From positions 1-64,000 of the forward strand of contig CANIVU010000008.1 in the NCBI GenBank assembly GCA_947470805.1: 64,000 nt of DNA, given 5' to 3'. The notes under the pieces were generated by a model. It saw only the letters and a list, made by a program, of their open reading frames with translations. It made no database searches and was not told where the DNA came from. The stretch comes from Acidobacteriota bacterium. Lineage in GTDB: Bacteria; Acidobacteriota; Terriglobia; Bryobacterales; Bryobacteraceae. Below, piece after piece: positions 30,731-42,342 of the stretch; the stretch's first letter is position 1; each line of letters begins with the position of its first letter. The position numbers were made by a program, and so were the translations under genes.

Positions 30731-33091
30731 GTGCAACTGAATTGGGCGCGCCGGTGGGCGCCGCTCTTGGCTCTCGTCATCGTTTATCTGGGCTGGACCA
30801 CGGCGTTCGGACTCTATGGTCCGGACGAGCCGCGCTATGCGTCGATCGCGCGGGCGATGGCGGCGACCGGGGATTGGATTACGCCGCGCCTGGATGGGGA
30901 GGCATGGCTGGAAAAGCCGCCGCTGCTCTATTGGATGTCGGCGATTGGATTCCGGCTGGGGCTGGGGCCGGAGAGCGCGCCGCGCGTGCCGCTGGTGCTG
31001 GCGTCGGTTGTGTTTTTGGTTTGGTTCCGGTTCTATCTGCGCCGGTGGTTGGCGGACGGGCAGGCCTTCTGCGCGGCGGCGATGCTGGCCACTTCGGCCG
31101 GGTGGATTGCGTACTCCTATGTCGCGGTGACGGATGTGCCGCTGACGATTTGTTTTGCCGCTGCCATGCTGGTCAGCCTGGCGTGGATTGAAGAGGGTCG
31201 CGCGCGGGACGCCGTCTTGGCGGGTGTGCTGTTTGGCCTGGCCGTGTTGGCGAAGGCGCTGGTGCCGTTGGCGCTGGCCGCGCCGTTGGCCTGGTTCGCC
31301 CGAAAGCGGTGGCGGCAGTGGCCGTTGCTGGTGGGGGCGTTACTGGCCGTGGCGCTGCCCTGGTACGTCGCCATTACACGGCTGGAGGGTTGGGCGTTCA
31401 TTGATGAGTTGATCATCAAGCACCACTTCAGCCGTTTCGCTACCGATGAATTGCAACATGTGCAGCCATTCTGGTTTTATCTGCCGGTGCTGCTGGGGCT
31501 GTTGGCGCCGTGGTTCTGGCTGCTGGGCCGTGCGCCGTGGCGGGAGGAGCGGTGGCGCTATTTCCTGGTGTGGGTGTTGTGGGGCCTTCTGGTGTTTTCG
31601 GCGAGTGCCAATAAACTGCCCGGTTATGTGTTGCCATTGACGCCGGCGCTGGTCGTGCTGATGGCGGCGGGCGTGGCTGATGGCGCTCGCTGGCCGCGGC
31701 GAGTGGCTGGGGCGATGTTGGGCTTGATACTGTTGGTGAAGTTGTTTGCGCCGCCGTTTTTGGACGCGCAGATTACCGCGCGCCAGTTGAGCCGGCAGGT
31801 AACGGCGGATGCCTGCGCGGAGGGGGTTTCGCGCGGGTTGCGCTATGGGTTGCATTATTATGCTGAAAAGCCGATGCTCGACTGCTGGCAAACGCCAGGG
31901 GCGGCGGCGGTGCCGGTTAGCGCGTCCGTGGGGCCGCGCGAAGCTCGCTACTCGATCACCCATTCCGCCACGCGTACGTTGACGGGGCGCCTTCTGGTTT
32001 TCGCGTCGCGGCAGGCCCCGGTGGGGGATGTGGTGTTGCCGGTGGAGAATGAACCGAACCTGGTGTGGATGTCGGCGCGCGAGGTGCTGCAGTGGCCCGC
32101 CGGGCAGGCCGTGACGCTGGATCCGATGTCGCTCGCGTTCCCCGGGCCGATGACAGCCACCGATGCCGGGAAGTTCTATTTCTCAGTGATTTTCGATCCG
32201 GAGCACGACTTCCCGTATGCCGGGCTGAGCTCCGAAGATTTGCGCAGTCAACTCACGGTGATTGACGATTTCGATCCGAAAGCCGACCGGGTTCATGCCT
32301 TTGCCTTGTCGCGTCGTGCGGGCGTAGCTCCGTTGCCGCGCGCCACGTTGGAGTTGCGGAGCGAGCTGCTTTCGCGGTTCCATCACCGGCCTGTGACGCT
32401 GCGGGCCGATGTGGTGCCAGGCACGCTGCCGGGGCGCGTGCTGGTGTTGCATGCGTTCGGCGAGACGTTCGCGCGGAGCCATCTGCGGAGTACCTTGCAT
32501 GGACCTGCGCCGACATTGATCTACTTGCATTGTGTGGACCAATTTGGCCACCACGCCTTTACCGATTCCGATGTGAACGGACCGTGGACTCGCGCGTTGC
32601 TGGAAGAGTTGCTGCCCGCCCTGGGGCCGGGGCCGGTGCCGGGGTTGTTGGGTGAAGGCTTAGGCGGTTGGGCAGCGGTGCGGCTGAAACAGCTGCACCC
32701 GGAACGCTTCGGCGCGGTGTGGGCGGTACGGCCGGATCCGCTCGATTTCCGGAACTTTTTCGGCGTCGATTTGACGCGCGAAATCGGCAGCTTCTATCGC
32801 GATGAAAAAGGCCGGCCGCGGCCATTTGTGCCGGCGTGGAGCATTGCTTCCTCGGCTCTGCGAGAAAACGTACTCGGCCCCGATGGCGGGCGCTGGGAGT
32901 CCTGGGAAACCATCTTCGGCCCGCGAACGAGCGAGGGCGTAAGCCGCGAACTGTTTGGCCGCGCCGATGGCGCCGTGGACAAAACGGTGGTGGCGGCATG
33001 GCTGCGTTACAACCTGGCGGCGCGGCCGATGCCGCAGGGCGTCCGCATTATTTCGGAAGCCGAACTGCCAGCCATCCTACAATTGAAATAA
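30731..33091 (+). CDS. ArnT-like glycosyltransferase fused to a degenerate esterase domain (786 aa)
   Basis: Residues 1-345 are a GT39/ArnT-type GT-C module: N-terminal membrane segment, the acidic loop YGPDEPRYASIARAMAATGD, WLEKPPLLYWM, and about ten more hydrophobic segments. From about residue 400 a soluble domain resembles secreted esterases (PTLIYLHCVDQFGHH, WAVRPDPLDFRNFFGVDL, FYRDEKGRPRPF). Where that family has the nucleophile motif GHSSGGW, this protein has GEGLGGW (641-647), so the serine is Gly643. The fused domain is therefore probably non-catalytic and may bind a glycan or lipid product. No frameshift is visible at the junction. The stop overlaps the selD start (TAATG). Confidence 0.78.
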   Translation: MQLNWARRWAPLLALVIVYLGWTTAFGLYGPDEPRYASIARAMAATGDWITPRLDGEAWLEKPPLLYWMSAIGFRLGLGPESAPRVPLVLASVVFLVWFRFYLRRWLADGQAFCAAAMLATSAGWIAYSYVAVTDVPLTICFAAAMLVSLAWIEEGRARDAVLAGVLFGLAVLAKALVPLALAAPLAWFARKRWRQWPLLVGALLAVALPWYVAITRLEGWAFIDELIIKHHFSRFATDELQHVQPFWFYLPVLLGLLAPWFWLLGRAPWREERWRYFLVWVLWGLLVFSASANKLPGYVLPLTPALVVLMAAGVADGARWPRRVAGAMLGLILLVKLFAPPFLDAQITARQLSRQVTADACAEGVSRGLRYGLHYYAEKPMLDCWQTPGAAAVPVSASVGPREARYSITHSATRTLTGRLLVFASRQAPVGDVVLPVENEPNLVWMSAREVLQWPAGQAVTLDPMSLAFPGPMTATDAGKFYFSVIFDPEHDFPYAGLSSEDLRSQLTVIDDFDPKADRVHAFALSRRAGVAPLPRATLELRSELLSRFHHRPVTLRADVVPGTLPGRVLVLHAFGETFARSHLRSTLHGPAPTLIYLHCVDQFGHHAFTDSDVNGPWTRALLEELLPALGPGPVPGLLGEGLGGWAAVRLKQLHPERFGAVWAVRPDPLDFRNFFGVDLTREIGSFYRDEKGRPRPFVPAWSIASSALRENVLGPDGGRWESWETIFGPRTSEGVSRELFGRADGAVDKTVVAAWLRYNLAARPMPQGVRIISEAELPAILQLK

Positions 33092-34113
33092 TGTCCGATC
33101 GCAAGTTGACAGCGCACGTAAAAGCCGCCGGTTGAGCGAGCAAATTGAGTCCAAAGGTTTTGGACCAGGTGCTCGGCGCTCTGCCGAAACAATCCGATCC
33201 GCGTGTGCTGATAGGCTTCGACACGTCCGACGATGCCGGGGTCTTCCAGCTGACGCCGGAGTCTGCCCTGGTGCAGACGGTCGATTTTTTCACGCCCATC
33301 GTGGACGATCCTTATCTGTTCGGCGCAATCGCGGCGGCCAATTCGCTCTCCGATGTCTACGCGATGGGCGGTGTGCCGATCTCGGCACTTTCGATTCTGG
33401 CGTGGCCGCGCGACGGGGACACCGAGGACCTGGGCCAGGTGCTGCTGGGCGGGTTGGACAAGATGAAAGAGGCCGGGTGCGTGATTCTGGGTGGGCATAG
33501 TGTGGCCGACCCGGAGCCGAAGTTTGGCTACGCCGTCACCGGCACGGTGCATCCGCAACGGGTGCTGGCCAATGGCGGCGCGCGGCCGGGCGATGCGCTG
33601 GTGTTCACGAAGGCCATTGGCACGGGCGTGATTTCAACGGCGTTGAAGCGGGGCACGGCGACGACGGCGCATATGGACGCCTCGATCGTCAGCATGCTGA
33701 CGTTGAATAATCTGGCTTGCCAGGCGATGCTGGCGGTCGACGCGCATTCGTGCACCGATATCACGGGCTTCGGGCTGTTGGGCCATGCGCGGGAGATGGC
33801 GGCCGCGAGTGATGTGACGCTTATCATCGAATCGGCCAACGTGCCGCTGCTGCCGGGCGCGTACGAGTACGCTGCCGCCGGCGCCGTTCCGGGTGGACTT
33901 AGGAATAATATGGAGTTTGCCGGATGTGCGGTTAGTAAGATGCGCGAGATCGACCCGGCGTTGGAATACTTACTCTATGACCCGCAGACGTCCGGCGGAT
34001 TGTTAATCGCGATGCCGGAAGGCGATGTCGCGAAAATGCAGGCACTCTACCCGCCCGCGCGCCGGATTGGGCGCGTGGTGGAGCGGCGAACGACACTATT
34101 GGAAATCGAATGA
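33091..34113 (+). CDS. selD: selenide, water dikinase, selenocysteine-containing SelD (340 aa)
   Basis: Makes selenophosphate from selenide and ATP for selenocysteine and selenouridine synthesis. The true start is the ATG at 33091, not the internal AGT-region start. The frame reads through a TGA at 33133-33135 to give KLTAHVKAAG-U-ASKLSPKVLDQ, with Sec at residue 15, exactly where SelD proteins carry the catalytic Cys or Sec. The rest is intact: GFDTSDDAGVF, TVDFFTPIVDDPYLFGAIAA, SDVYAMGG, GGHSV, ITGFGLLGHAREM, DPQTSGGLL. A SECIS-like hairpin follows the TGA. The start overlaps the upstream stop by one base and the stop overlaps pyrF (ATGA). Without Sec decoding only a 14-residue peptide would result. 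Confidence 0.9.
33133..33174 (+). promoter_or_regulatory. selenocysteine UGA and SECIS-like hairpin in selD
   Basis: The TGA at 33133-33135 is followed by a bipartite hairpin: lower stem 33138-33141 with 33171-33174 (GAGC/GCTC), then a perfect 7-base upper stem 33149-33155 with 33159-33165 (GTCCAAA/TTTGGAC) and the loop GGT. Bacterial SECIS elements lie just downstream of UGA and have a GU-containing apical loop bound by SelB; this fits. Confidence 0.75.
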
Positions 34114-34796
34114 ACCCCATCATCATTGCTCTGGATTGCGATACGGCGGCCGAGGCGCGCTCGATTGTGGACGCGACGTCGAAAACGGTTGGCTTCTATA
34201 AAGTCGGCCTGGAGTTATACGCCGCGGCGGGCATGGAGTTTGTCCGCGAACTGATCAAGAGGCGGAAGAAAGTGTTCCTCGATTTGAAATTGAATGATAT
34301 TGGGGAGACGGTGCGGCGGTCGACCGCGGTGATTGCGAAAAGCGGAGTCAGTTTGCTGACCGTACATGCCGAACCGCAAGTGATGCGGGCGGCGGTGGCG
34401 GGGCGGGGAACTGGCAAGTTGAAGATCCTGGGTGTGACGGTGCTGACGAGCCTGGACCAGGTGGACGTGCACGAGATGGGTTACACGATTGCGATCCGCG
34501 AGCTGTTCGATCTGCGGGTCCGGAATGCCGTGCGGGCCGGGGTGGATGGGTTGGTTTGTTCGCCGCTCGAAGTAGGCGATGTGCGCAAGGCCGTGGGGCC
34601 GGATAAGTTGCTGGTTACGCCGGGTGTGCGGAGCGCGGGCGCGGCCAAGGGAGACCAGAAACGGGTGGCGACGCCCGCGCAGGCGATGGCCGATGGGGCG
34701 AGTCATTTAGTGATTGGTCGGCAGGTGACCCGGGCGGCGGATCCGAACAAAGCGGTGCGGGAAATTCTGGCGGAATTGAAGCTGTCGGGTCGATAA
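34110..34796 (+). CDS. pyrF: orotidine 5'-phosphate decarboxylase (228 aa)
   Basis: Last step of UMP synthesis: decarboxylation of OMP. A TIM barrel of normal length with the catalytic Lys/Asp array: ALDCDTAAEA (residues 8-17), the KVGLELY segment, FLDLKLNDIGETV (Asp-Lys-Asp around residues 58-66), and the phosphate-binding VTPGVRSAGAAKGDQKRVATPAQAM near residue 170 followed by DGASHLVIGRQVT. The start overlaps the selD stop by four bases, so translation is probably coupled. Cytoplasmic. A weak hairpin lies 25 bases after the stop. Confidence 0.95.
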   Translation: MNPIIIALDCDTAAEARSIVDATSKTVGFYKVGLELYAAAGMEFVRELIKRRKKVFLDLKLNDIGETVRRSTAVIAKSGVSLLTVHAEPQVMRAAVAGRGTGKLKILGVTVLTSLDQVDVHEMGYTIAIRELFDLRVRNAVRAGVDGLVCSPLEVGDVRKAVGPDKLLVTPGVRSAGAAKGDQKRVATPAQAMADGASHLVIGRQVTRAADPNKAVREILAELKLSGR

Positions 34797-34846: not shown

Positions 34847-35074
34847 ACGGGGCGATCCGTTTGCCGCTTCTGTTTCAATGAGTTAGCGGCAGCAGGTTTG
34901 ACAACGCCTGCGGTGTGGCGCTGGATCGCGATCTGTTTCACGCCGTTGACCCCTTTTTTTCAATCTGCTAACAATGACGTACATCTATGCTCGTATTCGC
35001 TCAACGCGAAGCGAGAATGCAGGTTGTCGCCACGCCGCCGGTGATCCCGGTCAGGCATGCTTTTGGGGAAAAAC

Positions 35075-38000
35075 ATGAATAAAACTGGTTTCAAGCTCCT
35101 GGGGGGTCTTCTCCTGGTTGCTTCGCTTGCTTTCGGTCAGACGACCACGTCGGTGACTGGTCTTGTGACCGATCCCTCCGGCGCGGTTGTCCCGAAGGTA
35201 TCCATCGAACTGAGCAACATTGATAACGGCACGAAGCGGGATGTCACCACTGACGCCAACGGTGCCTATTCGGTTCCGCAAATGACGCCGGGCAACTACC
35301 GGATTACCGCGAAGGCAAGTGGATTCTCTACAGCGGTGCTGACCGGTCTGCGTTTTCTGGTTAATACGCCTGCTACGGTGAACATCAAGTTGGAAGTCGG
35401 CACGATTTCCGACACGGTTTCGGTTTCGGCGGAATCGGTCCAATTGAACACGGTGGACGCCAGTATCGGCAACTCCTTCGGGACAAAGCCGATTCTGCAA
35501 CTGCCCTTCGAAGGCCGCAACGTGGTCGGCCTGCTGTCTTTGCAGCCCGGCGTGACTTTCGCCGGTGAGAACCTGACCGGCAGTTACCGCGGCGGCAACG
35601 TCAACGGCGGCAAGAACGATCAGGCGAACGTCACCCTTGACGGCGTCGACGTGAACGACCAGCAGAATCGCGATCCGTTCACCAGCGTGCTCCGCGTGAC
35701 GCTCGATAGCGTCCAGGAGTTTCGCGTTGTGACCACCAATGCCAACGCCGAACTCGGCCGCTCTTCTGGTGCGCAAGTTTCGCTCGTCACCAAGAGTGGC
35801 AGCAACGAACTGCACGGCTCGGCGTATGAGTTTCTGCGCAACAAAGCGACCAATGCCAATTCGTTCTTTAACAACACGAACGGCGTAGGACTGGCGAAAC
35901 TGAATCGCAATGTGTACGGCGCCTCGCTCGGCGGCCCCATCAAGAAGAACCGCCTGTTCCTCTTCGGCAACTACGAAGGCCGCAAGGATCGCCGCGAGGA
36001 TTCTGTTCTTCGTACCGTTCCCACCGCCAGCCTGCGCGAAGGCACGGTGAAGTACATCCGCAGCAATGGTTCCGTCGCCGAACTCACGCCGGCCGACCTC
36101 CGGACCCGCATTGACCCATTGCAGATCGGCCCGAACGCCGCCGCCCTGGCCATCCTCAAGCAGTATCCGCTGCCGAACGACGCCGCCGCCGGCGACGGCA
36201 TCAACACAGCCGGTTACCGGTTCAACGCCCCCATCAAGCTGGACCAATATACCCTGATTTCCCGCGCCGACTATATCGTTGACGCCGCGGCCAAGAACAC
36301 CGTCTTCCTGCGCGGCAACCTGCAGAAGGACGTGTTCCGCGACGTGTCCCAGTTCCCCGGCCAACCTTCGACGAACAGCAACCTCAACAACAGCAAGGGC
36401 CTTGCCACCGGTTGGACCTCTACCATCGGCTCTAACAAAGTGAGCAACTTCCGCTACGGCATCACCCGCGTCGGCGTGGAAAACACCGGTATTTCGAATC
36501 AGCAGTTTGTCAATTTCCGCAACATCGACCTGATCAACTCCGACGCTCGCGCCTTCATCCGCAAGACTCCGGTGCACACGCTGGCCGAGGACTTCAGCTG
36601 GATTAAAGGGAAGCACGAAGTGAAGTTCGGCGCCCAGATGCGCTTCATCCGGAACAGCCGCGTCAACTACGGCAATTCGTTCTCGAGCGCGACCACCAAT
36701 GCGTCGTGGCTGAACGGCAGCGGTGCGACCCTGAATGCACCTCTCACCGATATCGCCTCCGCCGCGCGTGTCGCCTACCGCGATGCGACGATGGCCGTAC
36801 TGGGCATTGTGTCGCAGGGTTCGGCTCGCTACAACTACGACAAAACGGGCTCGCCGCTCGCGCAGGGTGCGCCTGTCGTCCGCCAGTTCAACGCGGAAGA
36901 GTACGAGTTCTACGGGCAGGATACCTGGAAAGTTAGCCGCGCCCTCACCGTGACGGCCGGACTCCGCTGGGGCCTGATGCCGCCTATTTATGAAGCCAAT
37001 GGCGTTCAGACCGTCGCCGAACAGCCGCTAGCCTCGTTCTTCGATCAACGCGTCGCCCTTGCCAACGCAGGCCTCTCCCAGGCGGCCGTGGCTCCGGTGC
37101 GTTATGTGTTGAAGGAACAGCCGGGCGGCCGCGATTTGTACCCGTTCGCGAAGAAGAACCTCTCGCCGCGTCTCGGCCTGGCCTACTCGCCGCAGGGCGA
37201 CTCCGGCTTGTCGAAGTTCCTCTTCGGCGGCGCCGGTAAGACCGCGATTCGCGCTGGTTTCGGTATGTACTACGACGTCATGGGCAGTGGACTCATCACC
37301 AATTACGATGCCTCCGCGCTCGGCCTTTCCACGTCGCTGTCCAATCCGTCGAGCAGCCTGACCGCCTCCACCGCCCCCCGCTTCGCCGGGCTGAACTCGA
37401 TTCCCGCCGGCCTCCTGCCCGCGGCTCCGGCCGGCGGCTTCCCGGTGACGCAGCCTAACAACTTCGCCATCACCAACAGCCTCGACGATCAGTTGAAGAC
37501 TCCCTACTCCATGAACCTGAACTTCTCGGTAGGCCGCGAATTCAAACATGGAATCTTCATCCAGGGCTCTTACGTCGGCCGCCTCTCCCGCCGGTCTCTC
37601 ACCAGCGAAGACATCGCCATGCCGACCAACATTAAGGACCCCGCCTCGGGCGTCACCTATTTCGAAGCCGCCAGCGCCCTCGCCCGGCAACTGAACGCCG
37701 GCGCCAACCCGGCGACGATCGCCAAAATCCCGTACTTCGAAAACATGTGGCCCGGCTTGGCCACGGCCACCAGAACTGCTACACAGGTTGTTGCCGATGA
37801 GTTCGACTTCAACGCGCCGGATTACACCTCCGCTTTGTACGATCTCGACGTGGCCTGCGATCCGGGTTGCAGCAAACTGGGACGCTACGCCTTCTACAAC
37901 CGCCAGTTCAGCTATCTTCGTACGCTCCGCTCCATCGGCAAGGGCAGCTATCACGCCATGCAATGGACGGCGACGAAGCGCTTCACCTCCGGTGACAGCA

Positions 38001-38716
38001 TCACCCTGAACTACACCTGGTCCAAGTCCATCGATTTGGCTTCCCGGCCGGAAAATTCCACCGCGAGCAACGGCACAATTATCAATGCCTTCAGCCGCAA
38101 TCTCTTCCGCGCCGTGTCGGACTATGACTCGCGCCACCAGTGGAATGCGAACTTCGTTTACGGTCTGCCCATGGGCAAGGGCCGGAAGTACCTGACGCAG
38201 GGTGGCCTGGTGAACGCCATCGTCGGCGGTTGGCAGATTGGCGGCCTCTACCGGCAGTCCACCGGCTTGCCCACCTCCGTTGGCAACGGCCGCTACTGGC
38301 CCACCAACTGGAACATTACCGGCAATGCCACCCAGATCGCGCCTGTGCAGGACGGCACCAACCGGAACGCCGTTGCGCCTCCTGGCGGCAAGTCCGGCGT
38401 CAACCTGTTCCAGAATCCGGTCGCGGCCGTCAAGGCGTTCCAGAACACCTTGCCCGGTCAGACCGGTGATCGCAACAATATCCGTGGCGATGGCAACTTC
38501 AACATCGACATGAATCTGGCGAAAACCTTCACCATGCCTTATAGCGAGAAGCACAAGGTGCAGCTCCGCTGGGAAGTGTTCAACCTGACCAACAGCACCC
38601 GCTTTGATCCGTTTGCTACTTCGGCTGACCTCGGCAACCTGGGATCGTTCGGTAAATACACCGACACGCTCACTCTGCCACGCGTCATGCAGTTCGCTCT
38701 CCGTTACGACTTCTAA
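35075..38716 (+). CDS. Oar-like TonB-dependent receptor (1213 aa)
   Basis: Large outer-membrane protein of the acidobacterial Oar/CarboxypepD_reg-TonB group. The signal peptide MNKTGFKLLGGLLLVASLAFGQ is followed by a carboxypeptidase-regulatory-like beta domain (TSVTGLVTDPSGAVVPKVSI to residues about 100), the plug (LQLPFEGRNVVGLLSLQPGV, GGKNDQANVTLDGVDVNDQ), and a long barrel ending LPRVMQFALRYDF with terminal Phe. TTGGGGAAAAAC before the ATG at 35075 is a good ribosome site; the earlier in-frame start is not needed. It is followed by a strong terminator and a close paralogue. Such receptors import oligosaccharides or peptides; ligand unknown. Confidence 0.9.
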   Translation: MNKTGFKLLGGLLLVASLAFGQTTTSVTGLVTDPSGAVVPKVSIELSNIDNGTKRDVTTDANGAYSVPQMTPGNYRITAKASGFSTAVLTGLRFLVNTPATVNIKLEVGTISDTVSVSAESVQLNTVDASIGNSFGTKPILQLPFEGRNVVGLLSLQPGVTFAGENLTGSYRGGNVNGGKNDQANVTLDGVDVNDQQNRDPFTSVLRVTLDSVQEFRVVTTNANAELGRSSGAQVSLVTKSGSNELHGSAYEFLRNKATNANSFFNNTNGVGLAKLNRNVYGASLGGPIKKNRLFLFGNYEGRKDRREDSVLRTVPTASLREGTVKYIRSNGSVAELTPADLRTRIDPLQIGPNAAALAILKQYPLPNDAAAGDGINTAGYRFNAPIKLDQYTLISRADYIVDAAAKNTVFLRGNLQKDVFRDVSQFPGQPSTNSNLNNSKGLATGWTSTIGSNKVSNFRYGITRVGVENTGISNQQFVNFRNIDLINSDARAFIRKTPVHTLAEDFSWIKGKHEVKFGAQMRFIRNSRVNYGNSFSSATTNASWLNGSGATLNAPLTDIASAARVAYRDATMAVLGIVSQGSARYNYDKTGSPLAQGAPVVRQFNAEEYEFYGQDTWKVSRALTVTAGLRWGLMPPIYEANGVQTVAEQPLASFFDQRVALANAGLSQAAVAPVRYVLKEQPGGRDLYPFAKKNLSPRLGLAYSPQGDSGLSKFLFGGAGKTAIRAGFGMYYDVMGSGLITNYDASALGLSTSLSNPSSSLTASTAPRFAGLNSIPAGLLPAAPAGGFPVTQPNNFAITNSLDDQLKTPYSMNLNFSVGREFKHGIFIQGSYVGRLSRRSLTSEDIAMPTNIKDPASGVTYFEAASALARQLNAGANPATIAKIPYFENMWPGLATATRTATQVVADEFDFNAPDYTSALYDLDVACDPGCSKLGRYAFYNRQFSYLRTLRSIGKGSYHAMQWTATKRFTSGDSITLNYTWSKSIDLASRPENSTASNGTIINAFSRNLFRAVSDYDSRHQWNANFVYGLPMGKGRKYLTQGGLVNAIVGGWQIGGLYRQSTGLPTSVGNGRYWPTNWNITGNATQIAPVQDGTNRNAVAPPGGKSGVNLFQNPVAAVKAFQNTLPGQTGDRNNIRGDGNFNIDMNLAKTFTMPYSEKHKVQLRWEVFNLTNSTRFDPFATSADLGNLGSFGKYTDTLTLPRVMQFALRYDF

Positions 38717-38733
38717 TAACGGAACTTTACGGT

Positions 38734-38766
38734 AAAAGGGCGGCTCCTCGTGGGCCGCCCTTTTTG
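38734..38766 (+). terminator. intrinsic terminator after the first Oar-like receptor
   Basis: An 11-base stem (38734-38744 with 38754-38764), loop of nine bases, then TTTTTGTTTTTG. The T-run overlaps the region just before the next receptor's start, so the second gene needs its own promoter or read-through. Confidence 0.8.
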
Positions 38767-38784
38767 TTTTTGTTACCGTTAGGC

Positions 38785-41700
38785 ATGTGGAAGTGGGCGT
38801 TGTTTCTCCTGCCAGGTCTGGCTCTCAGTGGCCAGGCGCTCTCGTCGCTGAGCGGTTCTGTTACTGACCCCTCCGGCGCGCTAATACCCGGTGCGTCGAT
38901 CTCGCTTGTCAACGCAGCCACCGGCGCCAAACGCGCCGCCACCTCCGATAGCGCCGGTAATTATACTTTCCCCCAACTCTCTCCAGCCACCTACACGCTC
39001 TCCGCCGCCGCCGCCGGCTTCCGCTCTCTCTCCCTCACCGGCGTTACCGTACAAGTCCAATCCCCGGCCACGCGCAACATCGAACTCGAACTCTCCGCCA
39101 CCGCCGACTCCGTTACGGTCTCCGCCGAATCCAATCCCGTCAACACGCAGGACTCCTCCCTCGGCAATAACTTCTCGTCAAAACCAATCCTCCAACTCCC
39201 TTTCGAAGGCCGCAATATTATTGGACTTCTCGCCCTCCAACCCGGCGTCACTTACTACGGCGAAAATAACCCGTCCAGTTATCGGTCCGGCAACGTAAAT
39301 GGAGGTAAGTCCGATCAGGCGAACATCACGCTCGATGGCGTCGACGCCAATGATCAGGACTCGCGCGCCAGCTTCACCACCGCCTTCCGTATCTCGCTCG
39401 ACACCGTGCAGGAGTTCCGCGTCGTCACCACCGGCGCCAACGCCGATCTCGGCCGCGCCTCCGGCGCCCAGATCTCCCTCGTCTCCAAAGGTGGCACCAA
39501 CGACGTGCACGGCTCCGCCTACGAATTCCTCCGCAACAAAGCCACCAACGCCAATAGCTTCTTCAATAACCAGGCCGGCGTCCCGCTGGCTAAGTTGAAC
39601 CGCAACATCTACGGCGCAACCCTCGGCGGGCCGGTCCGCAAAAACCGCCTCTTCCTCTTCGGTAACTACGAAGGCCGTCACGATAGCCGCGAAGATTCCA
39701 CCGTCCAGCGCGTCCCCGCACAAAGCCTCCGCGACGGCCAGTTGAAGTACCTCCGTACGGACCGCACCACCGCCACCCTCACCCCCGATGACGTGAAGAC
39801 CCGCGTCGACCCGCTTGGCACCGGTGCCAACGCCGCCGCCCTCGCCGTGCTCCGCTCATACCCCCTGCCCAATGACTCCAGCACCGGCGACGGCCTCAAC
39901 ACCTCCGGCTTCCGTTTCAACGCCCCCGTCCGCCTCCACTGGCAGTCCTACATGACGAAGTTCGACGCCATCCTCGACAAAGCCAGCAAACACACACTCT
40001 TCGTCCGCGGCAACCTGCAAGACGACAAGGAAAACGAAATTCCCCAATTCCCCGGCCAGCCGCCGAATAACACCAGCCTCGATAACAGCCGCGGCCTCGC
40101 CGTCGGCTGGAATGCTGTATTGACTAACTCCCTCGTAAACACCTTCCGCTACGGCATCACGCGTACAAGCTTCGAAGACACCGGCCTTTCGAAGGAATCG
40201 TTCGTCTACTTCCGCAACCTGGAACCAGCCACCGGCGACACGCGCGCCTATATCCGCAAAACGCCCACCCACACCTTCGCCAACGACGTCACCTGGACCC
40301 ACGCCCGCCACGACTTCAAGTTCGGCGGCGTCCTGCGCTTCATCCGCAACTCCCGCAACGACTATTCCAACTCCTTCCACGAAGCCACCGCCAATCCCAC
40401 CTGGCTGTCGGACGCCGGCGCCTCGCTCAACACCCGCCTCACCGATATGGCCCGCGGCAGCCAGACGCAGTTCCGCGAAGCCGCGATGGACTTGATCGGC
40501 ATCGTCAGCCAGGGCACGGCCCACTACAACTACACGAAGACCGGGCAGGCCCTCGCCTTGGGCGCCCCCATCGCCCGCCGCTTTGACGCTGAAGAGTACG
40601 AACTCTACGCCCAGGACACCTGGAAAGCCACCAAGACCATCACGCTCACCTACGGTCTCCGCTGGTCGCTCATGCCCCCTGTCCACGAAGCCAGCGGAAC
40701 GCAAACCTCCACCCGTATTCCTCTCTCAGATTTCTTCGCCCAGCGCGCCGCCTATGCCGATAACGGCATCCCTCAATCCCGCGTCGCCCCCGTCGAATAT
40801 CTCCTGAAGGAACAGCCCGGCGGTCGCGATCTCTACCCCTTCCACAAGAAGAATTTCGCCCCCCGCTTCGCCGCCGCCTGGGCCCCCGGCAAAACGGTCG
40901 TCCGCGCCGGCTGGGGCATGTACTATGACCTGATCGGCGCCGGCCTCATCTCGAATTACGACTCCGTTTCCCTCGGCCTCCAGTCCAACATTTCGAACCC
41001 CAGCGGCTCGCTCACAGCCGCCACCGCCCCGCGCTATACCGGCCTCCACTCCATCCCCGCCGGTCTCCTCCCCGCCGCCCCCGCCTCCGGTTTCCCCCTC
41101 GTCGCGCCGAATCTGTTCGACATCAATTCCGCCATCGATGACAAAGTCAAACCGCCCTACACCATGAATATGAACTTCACCGTCAGCCAGGATTTCGGCC
41201 GCGGCTGGTTCGTGCAGGGCTCCTACGTCGGCCGCCTCTCCCGCCGCTCTCTTCTCTACGAGGACATGGCCCAACCCACCAATCTGCGAGACTCCATTTC
41301 CGGCGTGACGTACTTTGAAGCCGCCCAACAACTCGCCCGCCTCGCCCTCGCCAATACACCCGCCGCCGGCGTGCAGAAAATCCCCTACTGGGAAAACATG
41401 TTCCCCGCCGCGGCCAACGCCACCCTCTCCGCCACCCAGCGCGTCTACCAGCGCTACCTGAACAACTCGCCGGACTTCGTCACCGCGCTCTACCAACTCG
41501 ATACCACCTGCACGCCCGCCTGCAGCAAGTTCGGCAAATACGCCTATTTCAACTCGCAGTACGCCTTTCTCGGCGCATTGCGCAGCGTCGGCAAGGGCAA
41601 CTACAACGGCATGCAGTTTTCCGTACGCAAGACCTTCGCCAACGGCGATCAGCTCGACTTCAACTACACCCTTTCCAAATCCATCGACCTCGGCTCCCGC

Positions 41701-42342
41701 CCCGAAAGTTCGCAATCCTCCGACGGGACAATCATCAACTCCTGGAACCGCGCCCAGTTTCGCGGCGTGTCCGATTACGACGCCCGCCATCAGTTCAACG
41801 CCAACTGGATCTACGGCCTGCCATGGATGAAGAAGAGCCGCTTCCTCGGTGGCTGGCAATTGGGCGGCCTCTACCGCCAGTCCTCCGGGCTGCCCATTTC
41901 CTCCTCTAACGGCCGCAATTTCCCAACAAACTGGAACATCGCCGGCTACGCCACGCCCACCGGTCTGCCCTTCCAGGACGGCACAAACAAGAACGCGCCC
42001 GCCCCCACCGGCGGTACCTCCGGCCCCAATATTTTCCAGAATCCGGTGGCCGCCTTCGCCGCCTTCACCTCGTCGCTCCCCGGCCTGCCCGGCCCACGCA
42101 ACGGCATCCGCGGCGATGGCAATTTCAACATCGACATGAACCTGGGCAAAACGTTCCAAATGCCCTGGCGCGAATCCCACTCCATGCAGTTCCGCTGGGA
42201 AGTCTTCAACGTCACCAACACCGCCCGCTTCGACCCCAAATCGATCGACCTCACCATCGGCGCCCAAAGCACCTTCGGCAAATACACCGACACCTTCACC
42301 CTCCCCCGCGTCATGCAGTTCACGCTCCGCTACGCCTTCTAG
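38785..42342 (+). CDS. Oar-like TonB-dependent receptor, paralogue (1185 aa)
   Basis: Tandem paralogue of the receptor at 35075, with the same order: signal peptide (WALFLLPGLALSGQ), regulatory-like beta domain (SLSGSVTDPSGALIPGASI), plug (LQLPFEGRNIIGLLALQPGV, GGKSDQANITLDGVDANDQ) and barrel ending LPRVMQFTLRYAF. Protein identity is high throughout, but codon use is not: this copy uses C-ending codons almost exclusively, far more than its neighbour. I chose the ATG at 38785; a TTG seven codons earlier is possible but overlaps the terminator tail. No clear ribosome site precedes it. Confidence 0.88.
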   Translation: MWKWALFLLPGLALSGQALSSLSGSVTDPSGALIPGASISLVNAATGAKRAATSDSAGNYTFPQLSPATYTLSAAAAGFRSLSLTGVTVQVQSPATRNIELELSATADSVTVSAESNPVNTQDSSLGNNFSSKPILQLPFEGRNIIGLLALQPGVTYYGENNPSSYRSGNVNGGKSDQANITLDGVDANDQDSRASFTTAFRISLDTVQEFRVVTTGANADLGRASGAQISLVSKGGTNDVHGSAYEFLRNKATNANSFFNNQAGVPLAKLNRNIYGATLGGPVRKNRLFLFGNYEGRHDSREDSTVQRVPAQSLRDGQLKYLRTDRTTATLTPDDVKTRVDPLGTGANAAALAVLRSYPLPNDSSTGDGLNTSGFRFNAPVRLHWQSYMTKFDAILDKASKHTLFVRGNLQDDKENEIPQFPGQPPNNTSLDNSRGLAVGWNAVLTNSLVNTFRYGITRTSFEDTGLSKESFVYFRNLEPATGDTRAYIRKTPTHTFANDVTWTHARHDFKFGGVLRFIRNSRNDYSNSFHEATANPTWLSDAGASLNTRLTDMARGSQTQFREAAMDLIGIVSQGTAHYNYTKTGQALALGAPIARRFDAEEYELYAQDTWKATKTITLTYGLRWSLMPPVHEASGTQTSTRIPLSDFFAQRAAYADNGIPQSRVAPVEYLLKEQPGGRDLYPFHKKNFAPRFAAAWAPGKTVVRAGWGMYYDLIGAGLISNYDSVSLGLQSNISNPSGSLTAATAPRYTGLHSIPAGLLPAAPASGFPLVAPNLFDINSAIDDKVKPPYTMNMNFTVSQDFGRGWFVQGSYVGRLSRRSLLYEDMAQPTNLRDSISGVTYFEAAQQLARLALANTPAAGVQKIPYWENMFPAAANATLSATQRVYQRYLNNSPDFVTALYQLDTTCTPACSKFGKYAYFNSQYAFLGALRSVGKGNYNGMQFSVRKTFANGDQLDFNYTLSKSIDLGSRPESSQSSDGTIINSWNRAQFRGVSDYDARHQFNANWIYGLPWMKKSRFLGGWQLGGLYRQSSGLPISSSNGRNFPTNWNIAGYATPTGLPFQDGTNKNAPAPTGGTSGPNIFQNPVAAFAAFTSSLPGLPGPRNGIRGDGNFNIDMNLGKTFQMPWRESHSMQFRWEVFNVTNTARFDPKSIDLTIGAQSTFGKYTDTFTLPRVMQFTLRYAF

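Follow-up and report, generated by a model that had tools for sequence, protein, structure and literature searches.

According to the available portion of PMC4561486, selenophosphate synthetase (SelD) is present in 26% of reference prokaryotic genomes and 19% of those genes carry selenocysteine (Sec), which always occupies the same position of the enzyme, and the bacterial SECIS elements of Sec-containing SelD genes were recovered. The limits for a bacterial SECIS (bSECIS) stated in the accessible part of PMC13188914 are a loop of 3–9 nt with a G in the first two loop positions, an upper stem of 4–16 bp, a spacing of 16–37 nt and a minimum free energy (MFE) of −7.5 kcal/mol or lower. In the accessible text of PMC1794560, 20% of the Sec-to-Cys conversions detected fell in the SelD family, 11 Cys homologues were found in organisms still making selenoproteins, and some Cys homologues retained remnant SECIS-like structures. 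For the acidobacterium Occallatibacter riparius, three known selenoprotein genes are given in the available part of PMC12013277. A literature search combining Sulfopaludibacter and selenocysteine returned no paper, and one combining Solibacter and selenoprotein returned only papers that were unrelated by title and abstract start; a Sec-SelD record for the species studied here may be unreported.

Here we describe selD in a 64,000-nt stretch of an acidobacterial genome, hereafter the window. An initial annotation, made from the sequence of the window, had proposed that this gene is a selenoprotein gene hidden behind an in-frame UGA. The observation was confirmed, and the comparative data described below support its interpretation. 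Genes of this kind are well known in bacteria, and Sec-SelD, the accompanying hairpin and the conversion of Sec to Cys have all been published; the window selD is a typical representative of its family.

Reading frame and gene neighborhood of selD

The selD frame lies on the forward strand at 33091–34113 and encodes 340 residues plus stop when TGA is read through as U. As the initial annotation had described, its ATG at 33091 overlaps the TAA of the preceding ORF (TAATG at 33089–33093), an in-frame TGA, the predicted Sec codon, follows at codon 15 (33133–33135, forward strand), and the frame then stays open to a TGA at 34111–34113. The peptide around the site reads MSDRKLTAHVKAAG-U-ASKLSPKVLDQ. 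When the UGA is treated as a stop, the listed ORF has its start at TTG 33145 (33145–34113, forward strand, 322 aa), and the gene model loses both its N-terminus and the site residue; this truncation had been foreseen for standard gene calling and is corrected by the read-through model.

The upstream ORF (30731–33091, forward strand), whose TAA overlaps the selD ATG, showed ArnT-like similarity below the curated cut-off. Downstream, pyrF, encoding orotidine-5′-phosphate decarboxylase (34110–34796, forward strand), shares an ATGA overlap with the selD stop, and a pyrF match was found in 27 of the 66 SelD loci searched, the window's included, some of these loci being too short to show pyrF. Further along the window, ORFs of 1219 and 1192 aa (35057–38716 and 38764–42342) lie in tandem; their translations are alike by eye, and from their appearance we presume them to be TonB-dependent Oar-type outer-membrane proteins.

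Family assignment of the read-through product

The protein query for the profile, Pfam, structure-chain and named-genome comparisons had Cys in place of the UGA-encoded residue; since selD also terminates in TGA, the query was one residue longer at its end than the true product. The product was assigned to SelD by TIGR00476 with an E-value of 2.9e-111 and 371.6 bits against a curated equivalog cut-off of 125, covering positions 1–308 of the 311-position profile, and it contained Pfam AIRS and AIRS_C, that is, both AIR-synthase-type domains. Across the whole genome a single place exceeded 125 bits, the SelD cut-off, and the next among the matches listed scored 57.4. Compared with the Cys-containing SelD of PDB chain 3u0o_A, a selenide, water dikinase of solved structure, the product was alignable over residues 5–312, and residue 15, encoded by UGA, paired with Cys17 of 3u0o_A, which we take to be the essential catalytic residue of SelD. 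The initial annotation had recognized the residues flanking the UGA as those of the SelD active site, and 3u0o_A has Cys where the window has UGA.

Sec and Cys codons at the site in related SelD genes

We scored the site codon in 65 SelD loci, a set that is not a random sample, being composed of the 30 best-scoring loci of one search, the 30 best-scoring of a second and five of the seven stretches of a third, and that contains the window's own locus (L032). The codon was TGA in 52, TGC in 12 and TGT in one, so that every locus scored had either TGA or a Cys codon, and the TGA loci spanned several families of the class. These were drawn from 67 loci (L025–L091), of which the site pattern missed L035, L089 and L091; L035 (TGC) was added by hand, and L089 (TGA) and L091 (a Cys-type fusion) were left out of the scored set. 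The peptide KLTAHVKAAG, encoded by the ten codons that precede the TGA, was little changed in the relatives and matches the SelD profile from position 1.

The same site was seen in two further searches. In 61 genomes, including that of the window, 31 SelD matches over the cut-off, all in different genomes, each held one in-frame TGA, as did a short SelD fragment below the cut-off in G026. A scan of named genomes gave 80 SelD loci, 61 with TGA, 14 with Cys and five unplaced by the site pattern, a tally read from the printed peptides on a set that overlaps the 65 scored loci; among the TGA loci were some from Clostridia and one from a Desulfohalobiaceae record. Of the named records retained, the closest was Candidatus Sulfopaludibacter sp. 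SbA3 (Acidobacteriota, Terriglobia, Bryobacterales, Solibacteraceae), with 88% identity, which makes it very probable that the genome of the window belongs to this group.

In a tree of 64 SelD proteins built with the site left out, the best tree required a minimum of 8 changes between Sec and Cys (7–8 on bootstrap trees), four of which were forced by well-supported branches; L090 was dropped as too short, and L055 sat on a very long branch with unsure placement. Among the 13 genomes with Cys-SelD, selB was found in 12 and tRNA-Sec above 60 bits in 10, so that loss of the trait does not by itself account for the Sec-to-Cys change. The related SelD loci form a compact set with several Sec/Cys changes at one site.

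A separate arrangement was found in L091 (G050), where a Cys-type SelD (MRCAGCGSK) is fused behind an oxidoreductase-like part. In the neighboring family f3 genomes, SelD matches sit in open frames of 749–832 aa, L091 being the one that was read. A SelD fused to an NADH dehydrogenase-like domain is described in the available portion of PMC4561486; the SelD domain is common to both, and L091 differs in being of the Cys type behind an oxidoreductase-like part.

A hairpin with a conserved apical stem downstream of the UGA

The two-part hairpin with a GGT loop that had been noticed after the TGA is present as a bacterial SECIS-type fold at 33138–33174 on the forward strand. Its apical stem (33149–33165, forward strand) has seven perfect pairs and the loop GGU at 33156–33158, 20 nt from the UGA, and its lower stem pairs 33138–33142 with 33170–33174. 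For the 39-nt element the folding energy is −15.8 kcal/mol (z −3.83), a value equalled by 0 of 200 dinucleotide shuffles, and a wider 51-nt stretch around it gave a z of −2.23 with 5 of 200 shuffles as good. When the same 14 codons were recoded synonymously, none of 300 recodings folded as well as the window sequence (z −3.87). Compared by hand on the computed fold, the hairpin lies within all four limits in the accessible part of PMC13188914 (loop 3, GGU; stem 7; spacing 20; −15.8 kcal/mol). Scanning the window against Rfam, with the gathering thresholds applied, returned 0 matches.

Across the relatives, the complete set of the first six apical pairs was present in 44 of the 47 distinct Sec rows as against 3 of the 13 distinct Cys rows. 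Relative to synonymous recodings, the median z was −2.77 in the 52 Sec rows and −1.95 in the 13 Cys rows, and a rank test on these folds gave a p of 0.0006, with related rows treated as independent. The lower stem of the window is not conserved, its eight pairs forming in 14 to 43 of the 47 distinct Sec rows, and the conservation argument therefore rests on the apical stem only. Two-sided changes in the apical stem were few, namely A-U to G-C at pair 22-28 in six rows and G-C to A-U at 17-33 in one, so covariation alone is weak and the synonymous-recoding control is the better test. By that control the weakest Sec rows were L040 (z −0.11, 141 of 300 recodings as good), L031 (−0.93, 50) and L036 (−0.90, 45). 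Since the TGA and the apical stem both recur in relatives, their occurrence at selD is not due to chance.

The Cys rows are not clearly free of structure, given their median z and the six further rows, of the 13 distinct ones, that keep five of the six apical pairs. L068 still folds well against its recodings (z −3.32), and L041, L055, L072 and L087 fold no better than theirs. In L027, the Cys-type locus of G003 from the window's genus, three of the six apical pairs are present by eye and a z of −3.01 is reached via a different structure. L027, L035 (G020), L041 (G031) and L087 (G025) have a Cys-codon SelD despite selB, selA and tRNA-Sec in the genome, each having lost one to four of the six apical pairs by eye. 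The TGA-type locus L025 (G054) has a shifted hairpin of other sequence with the loop AAUCC, stable at −15.9 kcal/mol.

Sec machinery and a second UGA-containing gene

The initial annotation had asked for selA, selB, tRNA-Sec and other Sec proteins in the genome, and absence of selB and tRNA-Sec would have spoken against it; the machinery genes and one further UGA selenoprotein gene were found. We detected selA (478.9 bits), selB (376.7 bits, over the cut-off, in a 621-aa ORF with SelB winged-helix domains) and tRNA-Sec (72.1 bits against a gathering score of 47), which ARAGORN called as tRNA-SeC(tca) with anticodon TCA. The acidobacterial genome is thereby indicated as able to decode Sec.

Searches of this genome for selenoproteins covered SelD, formate dehydrogenase and SelW-type proteins. 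A second UGA gene encodes the formate dehydrogenase-N alpha subunit (TIGR01553, 1352.4 bits when read through) at C32:7307–10318 (L176:3308–6319), with 1003 residues from the chosen start, a TAT signal match and a TGA at codon 194 in ARL-U-HGPTV. Its hairpin (loop GUU, 19-nt spacing, −13.5 kcal/mol) lies inside the limits in the accessible part of PMC13188914 and does not stand out from shuffles, 33 of 200 of which fold as well (z −0.88). This is a different enzyme from the window SelD, and a UGA with a hairpin inside those limits is common to both. No SelW-type protein (TIGR02174) and no tRNA 2-selenouridine synthase (TIGR03167) was found in the genome at E 0.001, the latter leaving the selenouridine trait unsupported.

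In the 61-genome search, a TGA SelD match occurred in 32 genomes, and in 28 of these tRNA-Sec scored above 60 bits. The other four, G018, G023, G027 and G034, have a TGA SelD yet no tRNA-Sec above 60 bits; at E 1e-60, selB was absent from G018 and G023 and present in G027 and G034, and among the four selA was over its cut-off in G018 and G027 only. The assemblies of G018, G023 and G034 are fragmented (330–1030 contigs), and the missing Sec genes of these three may stem from fragmentation or mixing of the assemblies; the assembly of G027, 96% complete, consists of 50 contigs. G018 (580 contigs, 99% complete, 7% contaminated) combines a TGA-type SelD and selA with no tRNA-Sec over the gathering score, and also holds a second SelD fragment at a contig edge.

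Interpretation of the in-frame UGA

Starting from the reading frame, its conservation, the constraint on the hairpin and the machinery genes, all observed directly, we regard the window selD as almost certainly encoding a Sec-containing selenophosphate synthetase in which UGA 33133 would be read as Sec via a SelB-bound hairpin. Were UGA 33133 instead a real stop, a truncated SelD would be made from TTG 33145, where such a start is indeed present, and the first 14 codons would be a leader peptide. This is highly improbable, given that KLTAHVKAAG before the TGA is kept as protein in relatives and fits the start of the SelD profile, that the site is TGA or Cys in 65 of 65 loci scored, and that the shortened SelD would be without the site residue.

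The Cys codons at the site in 13 of the 65 loci would also fit a sequencing error for a true TGC or TGT, and a nonsense mutation in a dead gene (pseudogene) is a related possibility; against both stand the recurrence of TGA in 52 of the 65 loci and 61 of the 80 named-genome loci (the sets overlap) and the intactness of the remaining selD frame, and we consider this explanation more improbable still. Least probable of all is decoding of the UGA as a standard amino acid, for instance Trp, by a code change or plain read-through and with no Sec. This reading has nothing beyond the open frame in its favor; against it, selD itself ends in TGA, the site alternates only with Cys codons in the 65 loci scored, and SelA, SelB and a tRNA-Sec with a TCA anticodon are all encoded in the genome.

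On the preferred reading, that of a Sec-containing SelD, the selD UGA is very probably read as selenocysteine in the enzyme's own active site, and known biology suggests how coupling, SelB binding, Sec insertion and catalysis would proceed. Translation would begin at ATG 33091, with probable coupling to the stop of the upstream gene, and the hairpin just 3′ of UGA 33133 would be bound by SelB with GTP and Sec-tRNA-Sec, so that Sec is put in at UGA 33133 in place of termination. Sec15 would then be the catalytic selenol with which SelD turns selenide and ATP into selenophosphate, and SelA would turn selenophosphate into Sec-tRNA-Sec, feeding both SelD and the Sec-containing formate dehydrogenase-N.

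A Sec-containing SelD would depend on its own product for its synthesis, which makes a self-feeding loop conceivable, in which Sec in SelD switches the selenium supply, and so the Sec-formate dehydrogenase, on sharply, and Cys relatives with SelB respond in a graded way. We think this idea unlikely; if it were true, the class would be a natural series for asking why SelD keeps or drops Sec.

Comparison with known Sec-containing SelD

Set against the bacterial Sec-SelD genes described in the available parts of PMC4561486 and PMC13188914, the window selD is alike in enzyme family, in the site of the Sec codon, in the downstream SECIS-type hairpin and in the machinery genes. No difference of substance was found in this comparison, and the window adds a species record.
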